The notes beneath the pieces are model-generated. The model searched no databases. It saw nothing but the letters and a program-made list of their open reading frames with translations, and was not told where the DNA came from. DNA of 64,000 nucleotides from Halovenus rubra (lineage in GTDB: Archaea > Halobacteriota > Halobacteria > Halobacteriales > Haloarculaceae), in assembly GCF_026586665.1 (NCBI RefSeq), contig NZ_JAODIY010000004.1:1-64000 (forward strand). The letters are read 5' to 3'. Shown one piece after another: positions 28,902-62,986 of this stretch. Position 1 is the stretch's first letter. Each line of letters starts with the position of its first letter. A program made the position numbers and the translations under genes.

Positions 28902-30860
28902 TTACTGGTTTTCCGAGAGGTTGACATGCCAGTCGAGGTAATACCCGTTGTTGTCTTCGGGCATACCGGAGGTGTCGGTGTTTTTCGGCTCGAAGCCGAA
29001 GTGACCGTACGCGACACTCTCCCAGCTCCATGCCCATCCAAGCGAGTACATCTGAAGGTCGCCGTCGTACCCACGCTGGATGAGGTCCGAGAACGCGGCC
29101 TCTTCGAGCGTGAAGTTGACACTTGTTGAGGCGAGCTTATCTCGGACGAGTGCTGCTGCATCCTGGTAGGTCGGACTCTTGTAGGTCGTGACGGTGAACT
29201 CAGTCTCCTCGATATTATTCTCTTCGAGGAGCTGAGTTGCGGCCTGGACGTTGCTTGCGCCGGGTTCGTCTTCTGTTCCGTATGGCCATTCAGAGACCCA
29301 TTGGTCGTAGCCGTCGGTTCCAGTCGGCCAGATCGACGGCGGTGTGAAGCTGAATGCCGGCTCTTTCCGACCTTCGAAGACTTGATCGTTGATTTCGTTC
29401 TGCCCGAGCACGTATGCGATTGCCTTTCGAACTGGTCGCTCGGTGTTTGCAACGTTGAACCCAAAGTAGCGGGTAACGAGCGACGTGAACCGCTGGTAGC
29501 CAAGGTCAACGTCGTTTTGTTCGAGATAATACGTTCCTACTCCGCGACCACGGTCGTCAGTTTCGTTGACCGTGTAGTTGTTTCGGTTATAGAACGACGT
29601 CGGGATGCTGAAGATATCGAGGTTCTCCTCGAGGATAAGTGTCCACCGTGGCTCGGGGTCTTCAACGATACGGTAAATAATTTCTGCCTGCTCTGCTGTC
29701 GAGCCGTAGTAGTCATCGAACCGGCTCAGCAACATCTCTTCGTTTTGGGACCACGATTCGAGCTGCCACGGTCCTGTTCCGAACGTCTGCTGGGTCCGGA
29801 GCGTGTCGACGCCAACTTCTCCGTCGTATCCCTCAATGTCTCCGATGAGTCCTTCCGGCAGGATACCGAACGCCTGATACGTTAAGACGTCCATAACAGC
29901 CGGGTTGGGGACTTCGGTCGTCACTTTGAGCGTATAGTCGTCGACGATTTCAATTGCCAGCGAGTCTGGCACGACTTCCTCGCTCTCATTACCCTCGTCG
30001 TCTGTGACAGTCTCGGTCTCGTGTGCAATCCCTGCACCGTTTGGTGCGTCGAAGACGAACTCTGCACGAACGCTTTGGTCTGCCTCTGCAAGCCGACGAA
30101 TCGTGTACTTCACGTCGCTTGCAGTCAACTCGTCACCGTTCTGGAACATGACGCCCTCTTTCAGGCTGAACGTGTAGGTGAGTCCGTCGTCGGACAGTTC
30201 GAAGGAATCAAGCACCTGATTTTGGAGTTCTGGAACGCCCTGTGGGTAGTGGACCAGTTTATCGTAACACTTGTGGATAACGGTCGCCGACGCGGTGTCG
30301 TCAGATTCGACCGGGTCAAGTGAAGAGTTGGTTGAGTTAACAAGCTGCAGCCTGTCCGACCCTTCGACTGAGGTTGTCTTGTGCTGGTGATAGGAGCCGC
30401 CGAGTGCACCTGTGCGGTCCCAGTCAACCTTCGGATACCAGAAGTTCTCGGTGATGTCGTGTGCAAAGTTGATCATCACCATATCGTCGCGTACAGCTTC
30501 TTCGATCTCGACATATGCCTCGTTCCGGAGGTCCTGATCTTTCGGCGAGGGGTTGTTAGCTACAGTCTCCCAGGCAGCCTGTGCCTTATCTGCGTGGGTC
30601 ATGTCTCCGCCGTCTTCACCATCTTCACCGTCGCTGCTACCGCCATCTTCACCATCTTCACCGTCGCTGCTACCGCCATCTTCACCATCTTCGCCGTCTC
30701 CGCTAGGGGTAGGGGTTTCTCCGCCGTCTTCGCCATCCTCGTCGTCTCCGCCAAAGATTGCTGAACAACCAGCGAGGGCTACGCTGGCGCTCCCGCCCAG
30801 GGCGGCGAGAAGTCGGCGTCGTGTACGATCCGGTTTACTGCCGTCTGCGTTTCTGGACAT
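28902..30860 (-). CDS. Peptide/solute-binding lipoprotein of the ABC importer (DppA/OppA family)
   Basis: A 652-residue extracytoplasmic solute-binding protein. It begins MSRNADGSKPDRTRRRLLAA: a twin-arginine Tat signal and a lipobox LAGC near residue 38, so it should be exported folded and lipid-anchored. The next 55 residues are a Gly-Glu-Asp-Ser linker made of 11-residue repeats, then the SBP_bac_5 domain with TYTFSLKEGVMFQNGDELTASDVKYTIRRL and FGTGPWQLESW. The start at 30860 follows a TATA box about 30 bases away; an in-frame upstream Met at 30908 precedes that box and is rejected. First gene of the transporter locus. Confidence 0.93.
   Translation of the reverse strand: MSRNADGSKPDRTRRRLLAALGGSASVALAGCSAIFGGDDEDGEDGGETPTPSGDGEDGEDGGSSDGEDGEDGGSSDGEDGEDGGDMTHADKAQAAWETVANNPSPKDQDLRNEAYVEIEEAVRDDMVMINFAHDITENFWYPKVDWDRTGALGGSYHQHKTTSVEGSDRLQLVNSTNSSLDPVESDDTASATVIHKCYDKLVHYPQGVPELQNQVLDSFELSDDGLTYTFSLKEGVMFQNGDELTASDVKYTIRRLAEADQSVRAEFVFDAPNGAGIAHETETVTDDEGNESEEVVPDSLAIEIVDDYTLKVTTEVPNPAVMDVLTYQAFGILPEGLIGDIEGYDGEVGVDTLRTQQTFGTGPWQLESWSQNEEMLLSRFDDYYGSTAEQAEIIYRIVEDPEPRWTLILEENLDIFSIPTSFYNRNNYTVNETDDRGRGVGTYYLEQNDVDLGYQRFTSLVTRYFGFNVANTERPVRKAIAYVLGQNEINDQVFEGRKEPAFSFTPPSIWPTGTDGYDQWVSEWPYGTEDEPGASNVQAATQLLEENNIEETEFTVTTYKSPTYQDAAALVRDKLASTSVNFTLEEAAFSDLIQRGYDGDLQMYSLGWAWSWESVAYGHFGFEPKNTDTSGMPEDNNGYYLDWHVNLSENQ
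30609..30695 (-). repeat. 33-bp in-frame tandem repeats encoding an acidic linker
   Basis: Within the binding-protein gene, a 33-base unit coding for GEDGEDGGSSD is repeated nearly perfectly, forming the acidic linker after the lipid anchor. Such linkers separate haloarchaeal lipoproteins from the membrane. The copies are close to identical at DNA level, so copy number is likely to vary between strains. Confidence 0.85.
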
Positions 30861-31316
30861 TCTATACTGACAAACCAATCCAAACGGTATAAAATTATCG
30901 CCATACACTCTCTCGACAGGCCGTTATACACAACTTCCATCGGTGAAACATCTCCTGGTGATAAAATCGCCTCAATTTTGACTTGGCAAACGTCACTGTT
31001 TGTCCACATATACCATAGTTTAGTCAGTTTATGACAGATGAATTATGATATTTCTATCACCTTTGCTATTCTCCGAGTGGTCTGTTGTCTTCTTGTTGCT
31101 ACAGCAAAGTGCACCATGTTGCGGTTAGTAGATCCATTTCGATACGTTAGACCACCCCTCCATTTTCTCGACAGCTCGTTCCCGGCGTCGGGCTACTGTT
31201 CGAGCGTGCGCATGAGATAATAAGTATTTCTTGTAGATACTGTGATTGCTTACGAATATCTGGCACAATCGTTCACAATACGCAAAAGCAGCTGCTTAAT
31301 GGTTAATTCAGAGAAG
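30861..31316. other. Gap between the binding-protein gene and the tRNA genes
   Basis: Apart from the promoter at 30888-30894, no convincing gene is seen in these 456 bases. Frames on both strands are short and lack natural composition. The stretch near 31030-31260 is AT-rich and might hold the end of the tRNA transcript. Confidence 0.5.
30888..30894 (-). promoter_or_regulatory. TATA box of the binding-protein gene
   Basis: TTTTATA on the minus strand lies about 28-34 bases before the ATG at 30860, predicting an essentially leaderless transcript. This supports that start over the upstream in-frame Met. Confidence 0.65.
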
Positions 31317-31389
31317 CGCCCGGAGCGGGATTTGAACCCGCGTCACGACCGTGACAGGGTCGTATGATGGGCCACTACACCATCCGGGC
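31317..31389 (-). tRNA. tRNA-Asp (GUC), copy 2
   Basis: A 73-base cloverleaf on the minus strand. The acceptor stem GCCCGGA/TCCGGGC closes perfectly with a G discriminator, the anticodon loop is CTGTCAC giving anticodon GUC (Asp), and GGTTCAAATCC forms the T loop region. CCA is not encoded. It is transcribed after the identical copy at 31430-31502. Confidence 0.97.
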
Positions 31390-31429
31390 TTCCTGCAATA
31401 CTCTGTAATTGGGTTTCAATTCAGAGAAG

Positions 31430-31502
31430 CGCCCGGAGCGGGATTTGAACCCGCGTCACGACCGTGACAGGGTCGTATGATGGGCCACTACACCATCCGG
31501 GC
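31430..31502 (-). tRNA. tRNA-Asp (GUC), copy 1
   Basis: Identical in all 73 bases to the tRNA at 31317-31389, and promoter-proximal. Acceptor stem, GUC anticodon and T arm are intact, and CCA is not encoded. A 40-base spacer separates the two copies, so a joint precursor is likely. Confidence 0.97.
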
Positions 31503-31532
31503 TTCCTTCACTACTCCGTATCGGGGTTTCAG

Positions 31533-58364: not shown

Positions 58365-59891
58365 ATGACTCAAGCCGCTGACGTTATTTTGACCAACGGG
58401 GCTGTCCACCCGCTTACGAACGGCGAAACAGGAGCGCCACGGGCCGAAGCTGTCGCCGTCAAAGACGGCACCATCGTGCGAGTCGACTCCGCGTACGAAG
58501 TCGACTTCTTGAACGGTGTGGAGACAGACGTTGTTGATCTTGAAGGCCGGACGCTCCTACCCGGATTTATCGACGCTCACACACATATGGTGATGGTGGG
58601 GCGTTACGCTGCGGAGGCCGATCTCTCCGGCGTTGCTGACCCCCAGAGTTGTCTGGACCTGTTAGCCAACCAGCGCGACGAGAGTGAGGGATGGGTTCTT
58701 GGCTTTGGTTACGATGAGAGCAACTGGGGTGGCGACTACCTCACACGCGACCAACTTGACAACATCAGCACGGAGCGACCGGTCGTGGCCTACCGAGAGG
58801 ACATGCACCTTGCCTCAGTCAACAGTGTGGTCCTCAACGGTTACCAAGACCAGATGCCCACCGGTGACGTTCGGACCGAGAGTGGCGAGCCGACTGGTGT
58901 GCTCGTTGAGGACGCGCTTGACGTCCTCTGGGATGAAATTAGTCCCGACCCTGCCGGAATGCGTGAATATCTTCGCGCGGCGCAGGACGAAGCAAACAGT
59001 CTTGGTATTACCGGTGTCCACGATATGGTCCGTCAGTCCCACGCTCCGCGGGTCTATCGGGACATGGATATGGACGACGAACTTTCGCTTCGGGTACGTA
59101 TCAATTACTGGCGTGACCATCTTGATGCGGTACTAGAGGCGGGCCTCCGAACGAACCATGGTAGCGACCGCGTGCAAGTTGGCGGAATCAAGACATTTAC
59201 TGATGGGAGTATTGGTGGCCGGACGGCCCGCCTGTCTGAACCGTACGACGACGCCGACGAGGTTGGTGATTGGGTGGTCGACCCAGAAACCGTCCGGGAA
59301 CTTGTCGAACAGGTTGACGATGCCGGGTTACAGATGACAATTCACGCAATCGGCGATAACGCCATTGAACTCGCACTTGACGCATACGAGTCGGCCGACG
59401 GTGAGCGACACCGTATCGAACATGTCGAAGTGGTACGGGATGACCTCGTCGAGCGTCTTGCCGATGATGATGTAGTGGTTTCGGCACAGCCAAACTTCCT
59501 CAAGTGGGCACGAGAGGACGGGCTGTACGCTGATAGGCTCGGTGAGGAACGCCGGACAGCATCGAACCCGCTTGGCACCTTACTAGCTGCTGGGGCTACC
59601 CTTGCATTCGGCAGTGACTGCATGCCGATGGACCCGCTTTTTGGTATCGACCAGACAGTAAATGCACCGGCAAGCGGACAAGAACTCTCAGTTACGGATG
59701 CGCTCCGTGGCTATACTTCTGGAGCGGCCTACGCCGGGTTCGACGAGGACCGCCTCGGTACAATCGAGGAGGGCAACTGCGCCGACTTCGTAGCGCTGGC
59801 AGAGTCACCGTGGGAAACCGACGATATCGCTGGCATTGATGTGTCGATGACTGTTGTCGGCGGGGACGTTGTGTATGACGCTCGCGAGTAA
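58365..59891 (+). CDS. Amidohydrolase family protein, YtcJ-like
   Basis: A 508-residue metal-dependent hydrolase. The metal-binding HTH is in PGFIDAHTHMVMVGRYAAEA near residue 68; the segment GFGYDESNWGGDYLTRDQLD, DGSIGGRTARLSEPYDDADE, the histidines in LQMTIHAIGDNAIELALDAY and RIEHVEVVRDDLVERLADDD, and the late GSDCMPMDPLFGI are all YtcJ-type. Substrate is not predictable; related enzymes act on amides and formamides. Start MTQAADVILTNGAVHPLTNG at 58365; the frame back to 58305 overlaps the macrodomain remnant and is not used. Monocistronic. Confidence 0.88.
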   Translation: MTQAADVILTNGAVHPLTNGETGAPRAEAVAVKDGTIVRVDSAYEVDFLNGVETDVVDLEGRTLLPGFIDAHTHMVMVGRYAAEADLSGVADPQSCLDLLANQRDESEGWVLGFGYDESNWGGDYLTRDQLDNISTERPVVAYREDMHLASVNSVVLNGYQDQMPTGDVRTESGEPTGVLVEDALDVLWDEISPDPAGMREYLRAAQDEANSLGITGVHDMVRQSHAPRVYRDMDMDDELSLRVRINYWRDHLDAVLEAGLRTNHGSDRVQVGGIKTFTDGSIGGRTARLSEPYDDADEVGDWVVDPETVRELVEQVDDAGLQMTIHAIGDNAIELALDAYESADGERHRIEHVEVVRDDLVERLADDDVVVSAQPNFLKWAREDGLYADRLGEERRTASNPLGTLLAAGATLAFGSDCMPMDPLFGIDQTVNAPASGQELSVTDALRGYTSGAAYAGFDEDRLGTIEEGNCADFVALAESPWETDDIAGIDVSMTVVGGDVVYDARE

Positions 59892-59954: not shown

Positions 59955-60875
59955 ATGAATGTAAGCCCAGTCCGGGTCGACGCGGCTGTCGACCTCAGCT
60001 ATGGCGTCTTAATTTTTGCCGCAGTCCTCGTTATGATTCTCGGTCCCGAATCAGTCGGACTGGCATTTGGTATCGGTGTTTTGCTCTCGTATGTTATCCA
60101 CGTCGTTTGGAAGATGGCACGATTCGACGCTGAGTGGATGACCCGGACCGTACAGGAAACTGTCGACGAAACAGTTGGCAAAACTGTCGAGGACACTGTC
60201 GGCGAGAAGATGGACGAGACGGTCGAACAGTCGGTCGGAGAGGCTGTCGAAGACACCGTTTCGAAGGAGGTTAGCCAGCAGGTCGAGGCAACTGTTGAAC
60301 AGACAGTCGAAGGTGCCGTCGAGCAGTCTGTTGAAGGAACTGTCGAAGAATCCGTTGAGAGTGCAGTCGAAGAGTCCGTTGAACAGACCGTTGAAGGGGC
60401 CGTCGAGGAAACGGTTGAGAGTGCAGTCGAAGAATCCGTTGAAGAGACGGTTGAAGGGGCCGTCGAGGGAACGGTAGAGGGTGCAGTCGAGGAATCCGTC
60501 GAAGAGACTGTTGAAGGTGCAGTCGAAGAGTCCGTAGAGGAGACAGTCGAAGGTGCTGTCGAGGAAACGGTAGAGGGTGCAGTCGAGGAGTCCGTCGAAG
60601 AGACCGTTGAAGGGGCCGTCGAGGAAACGGTTGAAAGTGCAGTCGAGGAATCTGTTGAGAGTGCAGTCGAGGAGTCCGTTGAAGAGACCGTCGAAGGTGC
60701 AGTCGAAGAGTCCGTAGAGGAGACAGTCGAAGGTGCTGTCGAGGAAACGGTAGAGGGTGCAGTCGAAGAGTCCGTTGAAGAGACTGTCGAAGGTGCCGTA
60801 GAAGAAGCGGTTACAGAGGCAGTACAGGAGATGGAGGGACCATCACGACCAGAGAGCGACGACGGAGAGACATAA
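59955..60875 (+). CDS. Membrane-anchored tetrapeptide-repeat protein, unknown
   Basis: A 306-residue acidic protein. Residues 10-55 hold two hydrophobic segments (SYGVLIFAAVLVMILGPESV and GLAFGIGVLLSYVIHVVWK). From about residue 64 to 290 the sequence is more than fifty tandem four-residue units of form [T/S/A]-V-E-[E/G/S/Q], for example TVEGAVEESVEETVEG. The tail is EMEGPSRPESDDGET. Valine at every fourth position with acidic neighbours suggests a long single helix or solenoid, very negatively charged. No catalytic motif and no family I recognise. It lies alone between the amidohydrolase and PfkB-like genes, with its own upstream region. Confidence 0.8.
   Translation: MNVSPVRVDAAVDLSYGVLIFAAVLVMILGPESVGLAFGIGVLLSYVIHVVWKMARFDAEWMTRTVQETVDETVGKTVEDTVGEKMDETVEQSVGEAVEDTVSKEVSQQVEATVEQTVEGAVEQSVEGTVEESVESAVEESVEQTVEGAVEETVESAVEESVEETVEGAVEGTVEGAVEESVEETVEGAVEESVEETVEGAVEETVEGAVEESVEETVEGAVEETVESAVEESVESAVEESVEETVEGAVEESVEETVEGAVEETVEGAVEESVEETVEGAVEEAVTEAVQEMEGPSRPESDDGET
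60126..60830 (+). repeat. 12-base-period coding repeats
   Basis: The DNA repeats every 12 bases (one tetrapeptide), with blocks at a higher order. Positions 60513-60586 and 60693-60766 are identical over 74 bases at a spacing of 180, showing a recent duplication of a 60-residue block. Synonymous variation elsewhere shows older copies. Confidence 0.85.
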
Positions 60876-60921: not shown

Positions 60922-61887
60922 ATGAACGAGCTTGTAACATTTGGGGAGACGCCGTTACGACTGTCCCCGCCTGGCAAGACACGTGTCGAGAGTGCAGGAC
61001 AGATGGAACTGTTCGCTGATGGGACCGAAAGCAATGTTGCTGTTGCTGCTTCAACACTTGGGACTGATGCACTTTGGGTGAGTAAACTCCCAGACACTGC
61101 TGTCGGAAAAAACGTCACACGACAAATCACGTCAACTGGTGTCGAAACGTCGATTACGTGGTCCGATGCGGACCACCGCCAAGGAATCTCGTTTCGCGAA
61201 GCGGCGGCATCACCACGAGAGAGCACGTACTGGCACGACCGTGACCGGACGGCACTGGCGACTACAGCGCCGGGTGACCTTCCCATGGAACAGATACAGG
61301 AGGCGTCTGTTGTCTACACCTCGTTGAGCAGTGCTGTTCTTTCGGAGGCCGCGACAAACACCGCCGAGGCGATGCTTCGCGCGGGCACTGGAGGCGGTGC
61401 TGTAACTGCTGTCGAACTGGATTATACACCCGGTCTGGAGTCTGCTAATTCGTACGCTCACGCTTTCGACCAAGTCAAAAGCGAAGTTGATGTGCTCATT
61501 ACCTCTGAGGAGGCGGTTTCCGATGTGCTTGAGGAGACGGGTTCACCACGGGAACTGACGAATACGCTATCGGCGCTCTATGACCTCCAGATTGTCGTTA
61601 TCAGGCGTGACGATGGGAGTGCCATTGCGCTTCACGACACTCCCGGGACAAACGTCGTTCACGAACGCTCAGAAATCCCGTCTGACTCCGTTGATCCGAC
61701 TGGTGAAGCTAGTGCATTCACTGGTGGTTTCCTCCACGAGCTCATCCAGGGCTCGGATACTGCGCGTGCTGTCACTGTCGGAGTCGCGTGTTCCGTCTTT
61801 GCAAAAACCCTCTCGGGACCATTCTTGCGCGTTGAACCCGAGGAAATCGAACCGATTGCAGACGAAGTCGTCGATCACTCACAATAA
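60922..61887 (+). CDS. PfkB-like sugar kinase family protein with altered catalytic motif
   Basis: A 321-residue ribokinase-fold protein. It begins MNELVTFGETPLRLSPPGKT, with GQMELFADGTESNVAVAAST (the first PfkB signature region with the N-A-V-A pattern). In the second signature, where families have TGAGDAF with the catalytic aspartate, this protein reads DPTGEASAFTGGFL: Ser264 replaces the base. Kinase activity is therefore doubtful; binding or regulatory function is possible. Haloarchaeal relatives resemble 2-keto-3-deoxygluconate kinase in outline. It is followed four bases later by a YgfZ-like gene. Confidence 0.8.
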   Translation: MNELVTFGETPLRLSPPGKTRVESAGQMELFADGTESNVAVAASTLGTDALWVSKLPDTAVGKNVTRQITSTGVETSITWSDADHRQGISFREAAASPRESTYWHDRDRTALATTAPGDLPMEQIQEASVVYTSLSSAVLSEAATNTAEAMLRAGTGGGAVTAVELDYTPGLESANSYAHAFDQVKSEVDVLITSEEAVSDVLEETGSPRELTNTLSALYDLQIVVIRRDDGSAIALHDTPGTNVVHERSEIPSDSVDPTGEASAFTGGFLHELIQGSDTARAVTVGVACSVFAKTLSGPFLRVEPEEIEPIADEVVDHSQ

Positions 61888-61891
61888 TGCT

Positions 61892-62986
61892 ATGATTTTG
61901 CTCACGGACGTCCACAACGAACACGGTGCACAGTTCGGTAAACGCGGCGGGAAAGATGTCGTCACCCAGTACGGCCGTCCGGAGCGGTCACACCGTGCCG
62001 TCCGCAACGCTGCGGGCGTCATCGAGTACGGTTCTGATATCCTCACGGTCACCGGTGAGGACCGACGTGAATTTGTCGATAATGCTGTCTCGAATGTCGT
62101 TCCTGACGCTGATGGCCACGGGGTATACTCACTTCTCTTGACGCCTCAGGGTCGGATTCGGACGGACATGTACATCTTCAACGCTGGCGAGCGCCTGCTC
62201 ATCTTCCTTCCGCATGGGCTCGGTAAAGAAATTGCCGAGGACTGGGACGAAAAGACATTCATCCAAGATGTAACGATTGAGTCTGCAAGCGACGAGTTCG
62301 CTCGGTTCGGCGTCCACGGACCCAAGGCAACTGAAAAGATTGCCAGTGTGTTTTCGGCTGAGACGCCACGTGAACCGCTCACGTTTTCTCGTGGGTCGAT
62401 GGGTGATATTGGTGTTACTGTCATCCGGACCGACGGGCAGACCGGAGAAGAGGGATACGATGTCATTGCTGGTGCCGACGATGCAATGTACGTCTTTGAT
62501 ACGCTGGTGAACCGAGGGCAGAACGCTGCTCCGTTTGGCTACCGGACATGGGAGTCACTCACGCTCGAGGCTGGCACTCCGCTATTTCGATCAGAACTCG
62601 AAGACGGAGTGCCGAACAACCTTGACCTCGACAACGCTGTCGACTTCGACAAAGGGTGTTTTGTCGGCCAAGAGGTCGTTTCCCGGGTCGAAAACCGCGG
62701 TGAACCGACAAAGCGACTCGTCGGTCTCGTCACTGAGGAACTCACAACGGCCGGTGCTGCAGTGTTCGATGGTGACGAACACGCCGGCGAAATTACGCGA
62801 ACGATGGAGAGTCCGCTCCGCGACACACCATTTGCGTTTGCAATCGTTAATCGAGAGATTGGAGAGAAAATCGGCGAGGATGCTGCACTTTCAGTTCGGG
62901 CCGACGGCGAGGAGGTCGTTGCAACTGCACTTTCACTCCCGTTCGTTGACGGCTCAGAAGAGTCGGCGCGGCTCCCGAGTCTGTAG
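61892..62986 (+). CDS. YgfZ/GcvT-family folate-binding-type protein
   Basis: A 364-residue protein of the YgfZ/GcvT superfamily. It starts MILLTDVHNEHGAQFGKRGG, has YSLLLTPQGRIRTDMYIFNA in the first domain, FARFGVHGPKATEKIASVFS and GEEGYDVIAGADDAM in the second, and the YgfZ hallmark FDKGCFVGQEVVSRVENRGE (K-G-C-x-x-G-Q-E) near residue 255. YgfZ proteins assist maturation of some iron-sulfur enzymes with folate; GcvT members are aminomethyltransferases. The KGCFVGQE motif favours the YgfZ side. Co-transcribed with the PfkB-like gene. Confidence 0.88.
   Translation: MILLTDVHNEHGAQFGKRGGKDVVTQYGRPERSHRAVRNAAGVIEYGSDILTVTGEDRREFVDNAVSNVVPDADGHGVYSLLLTPQGRIRTDMYIFNAGERLLIFLPHGLGKEIAEDWDEKTFIQDVTIESASDEFARFGVHGPKATEKIASVFSAETPREPLTFSRGSMGDIGVTVIRTDGQTGEEGYDVIAGADDAMYVFDTLVNRGQNAAPFGYRTWESLTLEAGTPLFRSELEDGVPNNLDLDNAVDFDKGCFVGQEVVSRVENRGEPTKRLVGLVTEELTTAGAAVFDGDEHAGEITRTMESPLRDTPFAFAIVNREIGEKIGEDAALSVRADGEEVVATALSLPFVDGSEESARLPSL

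Follow-up and report, generated by a model that had tools for sequence, protein, structure and literature searches.

We analysed a 64,000-nucleotide stretch of DNA from Halovenus rubra (hereafter the window), and found that one of its genes belongs to a haloarchaeal family in which a conserved membrane hairpin carries a tail with a strict four-residue valine period. We propose, with a probability of about 0.5, that its product serves a CysP-like oxyanion permease of the PiT superfamily as an accessory membrane subunit, with an acidic helical tail in the cytoplasm. The role is proposed because of synteny with a PiT-family permease, which is the best functional clue. The features of the gene and its surroundings are collected in Table 1. 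The window also contains two tandem tRNA-Asp(gtc) genes at 31305-31531 (113-bp repeated unit, 94% identity) and a 33-bp tandem repeat in three copies at 30607-30705.

Table 1. The tail-protein gene, its parts and the adjoining genes, in window coordinates
Feature	Coordinates	Strand	Basis
Whole gene, two-TM domain and tetrad-repeat tail	59955..60875	+	ORF of 306 aa with ATG start; family membership
Conserved membrane hairpin domain (predicted), residues 1-63	59955..60143	+	18 invariant columns of 61; predicted helices; flanking K/R
57 tetrads [T/A/S]-V-E-[E/G/S/Q], valine in 56	60147..60830	+	Sequence; low-confidence predicted helices
Polar C-terminus (short), including the stop codon	60831..60875	+	Sequence
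Amidohydro_3 gene, upstream neighbour	58365..59891	+	Pfam
PfkB sugar kinase family gene, downstream neighbour	60925..61887	+	Pfam
GcvT-like aminomethyltransferase gene, second downstream neighbour	61955..62986	+	Pfam

The membrane hairpin and its family

An earlier sequence-only reading had described a membrane protein with two segments, and two N-terminal helices were indeed predicted at residues 5-29 and 32-56. AlphaFold, run with 45 relatives, gave the hairpin a pLDDT of about 82. Lysine and arginine are found at either flank of the hairpin, with almost none in between, so that by the positive-inside rule both ends of the hairpin, and with them the tail, would lie in the cytoplasm. Alignment over 30 relatives showed that 18 of 61 hairpin positions are invariant, with the pattern PxRVDxxxDxxYG ... 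AFGxG ... Y..H..WKMxRxDxxWM.

With the first 67 residues as query, relatives turned up in 24 of 39 genera and in 37 of the 59 related genomes. The N-terminal search in other haloarchaea that the sequence-only reading had suggested gave profile matches in 81 of 116 well-assembled Halobacteria genomes (about 70%); the genomes sampled from the rest of the phylum, beyond the order to which the window belongs, gave none. A scan of GTDB confirmed 198 candidate stretches, from which 80 named loci were kept, the closest being from Halovenus; no viral relative was confirmed in IMG/VR. The hairpin had no match in Pfam or NCBIfam, its profile had none in the PDB, and annotated plasmid records label the family gene 'hypothetical protein'. 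Judged by these comparisons, the hairpin defines an undescribed haloarchaeal family, in agreement with the earlier view that the protein belongs to no named one. That reading had also warned that matches to the repeats only would point to a low-complexity artefact; it is the hairpin that is conserved, and that finds relatives throughout the haloarchaea.

Several named families were considered for the full protein and rejected. DUF445 (PF04286) scored 31.0 bits against a cut-off of 33.8 with only the low-complexity tail aligned, and COMPASS-Shg1 (PF05205) reached 30.7 over the whole protein (> 24), with no stretch significant alone and the best one in the repeats. The Pfam and NCBIfam matches to EcsC, GerPC, DksA, MamT and GvpQ were below cut-off or within the repeats, and the PDB match to ribosomal protein L17 (E 0.0045) was to the tail alone. 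A literature search on tetrapeptide repeats and haloarchaeal PiT proteins found nothing direct.

The four-residue valine period of the tail

Residues 65-292 of the window protein form 57 uninterrupted tetrads, in 56 of which position 2 is valine; the single exception is KMDE, and the remaining positions are T/A/S, E and E/G. When the tail was shuffled 20,000 times, the best phase held at most 26 valines in 57 tetrads, which upholds the earlier count of more than fifty acidic tetrads with a strict period. The tail has a net charge of -81 and a pI of 4.05. When the window genome was searched with the tail, no further gene scored below E 0.1.

The sequence-only reading treated the array as a single odd protein, but the tetrad tail is the rule in the family. 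All 98 complete relatives have a tail of their own (53-261 aa, median 183), and in these tails 90.6% of valine-to-valine spacings are exactly 4. The tail sequence differs between members, many of which mix in lysine and arginine, and the tetrad typical of the family reads V-[E/G/S/D]-[E/K/D]-T. Among 29 close pairs, amino-acid change per comparison was 5.3% at valine sites, compared with 22% at glutamate and 20% at threonine, a comparison that the repeat alignment may tilt somewhat in favour of valine. Valine is thus the most constrained tail position and is under selection. A C-terminal motif resembling RVDRRPRxxE was found in 38 of the 98 relatives, while the window protein does not have it; it occurs in the shortest relatives and is possibly the ancestral end of the protein.

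We also considered whether the tail is a low-complexity expansion by replication slippage, with little function beyond halophilic solubility, so that the hairpin alone would matter. DNA duplications of 60 and 180 bp overlie the tetrads in the window tail, others of 144 bp occur in Haloferax relatives, tail length varies and short-tailed members exist, all of which speaks for this reading. At a 12-bp lag, however, third codon positions in the window tail match at 29%, near random, while amino acids match at 51%, and the valine codons are mixed (30 GTC, 18 GTT and 8 GTA). These results indicate that the DNA underlying the tetrads is old, that the valine has been kept, and that the array is neither a recent DNA repeat nor a local repeat artefact; the 60- and 180-bp duplications are more recent. 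Together with the dominance of spacing 4 across the 98 members and the constraint on the valines, this makes slippage an improbable explanation. GTG is absent from the 56 tail valine codons compared with 20% in neighbouring genes (P ~3e-6), but we rejected this absence as a meaningful trait and regard it as local, since GTG makes up 13% of tail valines family-wide.

The hydrophobic period of the tail peaks at 90-94 degrees per residue (3.83-4.0 residues) in all 98 complete relatives, and at exactly 90 degrees in 53 of them. α-Helical coiled coils have periods of 3.5 (heptad), 3.67 (hendecad), 3.75 (pentadecad) and locally 3.8 in YadA, with a suggested upper limit of about 3.9 residues per turn (PMC4786415). 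Taking a hydrophobic periodicity of about 3.33 to about 3.9 residues per turn as the mark of such coiled coils, we found that the window protein, at 90 degrees or 4.0, lies outside the range, so the earlier description of a non-heptad array holds; 12 members, with peaks at 93-94 degrees, lie narrowly within it. Like coiled coils, the tail has hydrophobic residues at regular intervals among charged ones in a predicted helix, but it differs in its period, which is 4.0 over 228 residues, family-wide and above the limit. By helix geometry, a valine at period 4.0 would wind round the helix, so that no single continuous valine core could form. The structure prediction called for in the sequence-only reading gave two long helices in the tail (59-170 and 180-293), at a low pLDDT of about 47-70. 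The tail helix is therefore a prediction and not a result; valine, threonine and glycine are poor helix formers. It is doubtful, though conceivable, that the tail represents a new repeat architecture, in which a selected exact four-residue valine period would give an ordered assembly beyond the coiled-coil range on a haloarchaea-specific transporter subunit.

Linkage to a subclade of PiT-family permeases

Gene neighbourhoods could be called in 75 loci, which were the closest to the window protein rather than a random draw, with genes called by a simple script. In 37 of them, representing 21 genera, a PHO4/PiT permease gene (PF01384) is the immediate neighbour of the family gene. The family gene lies upstream of the permease gene and co-directional with it in 17 linked loci, 15 of which have a gap of 0 bp or less (touching or overlapping), and most other pairs are divergent; the family gene often overlaps the permease start codon. 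The pair was present in all four annotated plasmid loci examined (a fifth plasmid locus is unannotated), and Haloferax also carries it. In a comparison of coordinates in 12 genomes of distinct genera, an adjoining PHO4 gene was found in 6, for which a simple random-order model that ignores shared ancestry gives a chance of about 7e-13. The linked permeases are concentrated in one 48-tip PiT clade (36 of 40), the other four belonging to a neighbouring clade and none to the other large haloarchaeal clade (40 tips).

No permease adjoins the family gene in about half of the loci, among them those Halovenus loci for which the context is available. The window genome has four PHO4 genes, none of them next to the tail-protein gene, and one of them is a retained permease of the linked subclade located elsewhere. 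The order amidohydrolase, tail-protein gene, PfkB-GcvT is conserved in Halovenus, where the gene has left the transporter neighbourhood. In many Halorubrum loci the neighbour is not a PiT permease but an amino-acid permease, after which comes a UspA-like protein. These other neighbours, the free variation in tail length and the strong acidity of the tail are consistent with a general membrane organiser or spacer, in which a hairpin-anchored acidic rod would determine distances or the local charge on the cytoplasmic face of the membrane and the permease linkage would be an ancestral or regulatory neighbourhood. We consider this possible but unlikely overall, since the pairing is seen again and again across 21 genera and on plasmids, comes in two gene arrangements and involves mainly one PiT subclade. 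The rod, spacer or charge organiser suggested in the sequence-only reading thus remains a candidate for the tail itself, whereas the main clue, the neighbouring PiT-family permease, was missed there.

When the linked permeases were aligned with the structure 6l85, both signature aspartates were found to be lost (GAND to GGST and GAND to GTSN). These PiT aspartates are reported to be essential for phosphate, and the CysP sulfate permease is reported to have G and N in their place (PMC5840216); the linked permeases share this loss. The best NCBIfam model was that of the CysP sulfate permease (NF053884), at 156 bits, far below its equivalog cut-off of 400 bits. The other haloarchaeal PHO4 clade also has no such aspartates and scores lower on the CysP model. 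The lost aspartates and the best model tentatively favour sulfate or another oxyanion as the substrate of the linked permeases, sulfate being more likely than phosphate. PHO4 genes number 2-7 per haloarchaeal genome, and the examined clades do not have the GANDVANA aspartates, which makes the annotation of these genes as 'phosphate transporter' appear doubtful. The CysP/PiT family (NF053884, PF01384, 6l85) is that of the neighbour; the window protein is a candidate partner and not a permease.

A candidate accessory subunit and its meaning

In the accessory-subunit reading, the conserved hairpin would be embedded in the membrane, its two ends facing the cytoplasm, and would contact the permease, forming a complex with it. 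The acidic tail would reach into the cytoplasm as a long helix with the valine stripe winding round it, and would probably self-associate or dock a partner along its length rather than form one classical coiled coil. The subunit would probably serve in transporter assembly, clustering or activity control; any mechanism for the tail is speculative. We think it very improbable that the tail acts as a cation or metal buffer, a polyacidic array that would keep cations close to the intracellular opening of a cation-coupled permease: carriers of the PiT superfamily work by symport with H+ or Na+ (PMC5840216) and the net charge of the window tail would suit this, but lysine and arginine are mixed into the tails of many relatives, and charge alone needs no valine every fourth residue. 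Genomes without the hairpin family still carry PHO4 genes, which shows that the family is not required for every PHO4 permease.

Bacterial DUF47 proteins are encoded beside PiT transporters. The window protein resembles PhoU_div/DUF47 (PF01865) in being predicted helical, but it has a membrane hairpin, and PF01865 is not among its Pfam matches. No PF01865 protein was found in the window genome, and among 13 haloarchaeal genomes the family was present in just 5, not beside their PHO4 genes, so DUF47 was rejected as the usual PiT partner in these genomes. Since the genomes that we checked either had no DUF47 protein or had it away from their PHO4 genes, the hairpin family could fill an analogous place.

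What looked like an odd sequence can now be tested as a family, which occurs in about 70% of the sampled haloarchaeal genomes and shows linkage to an oxyanion permease; neither the substrate nor the regulation of this permease appears to have been studied in haloarchaea. Haloferax is genetically tractable and carries the gene pair, so a direct test of the pair is possible. The family also raises a structural question, namely how a peptide behaves whose valines recur at an exact spacing of four, when the coiled-coil limit lies near 3.9 residues per turn.
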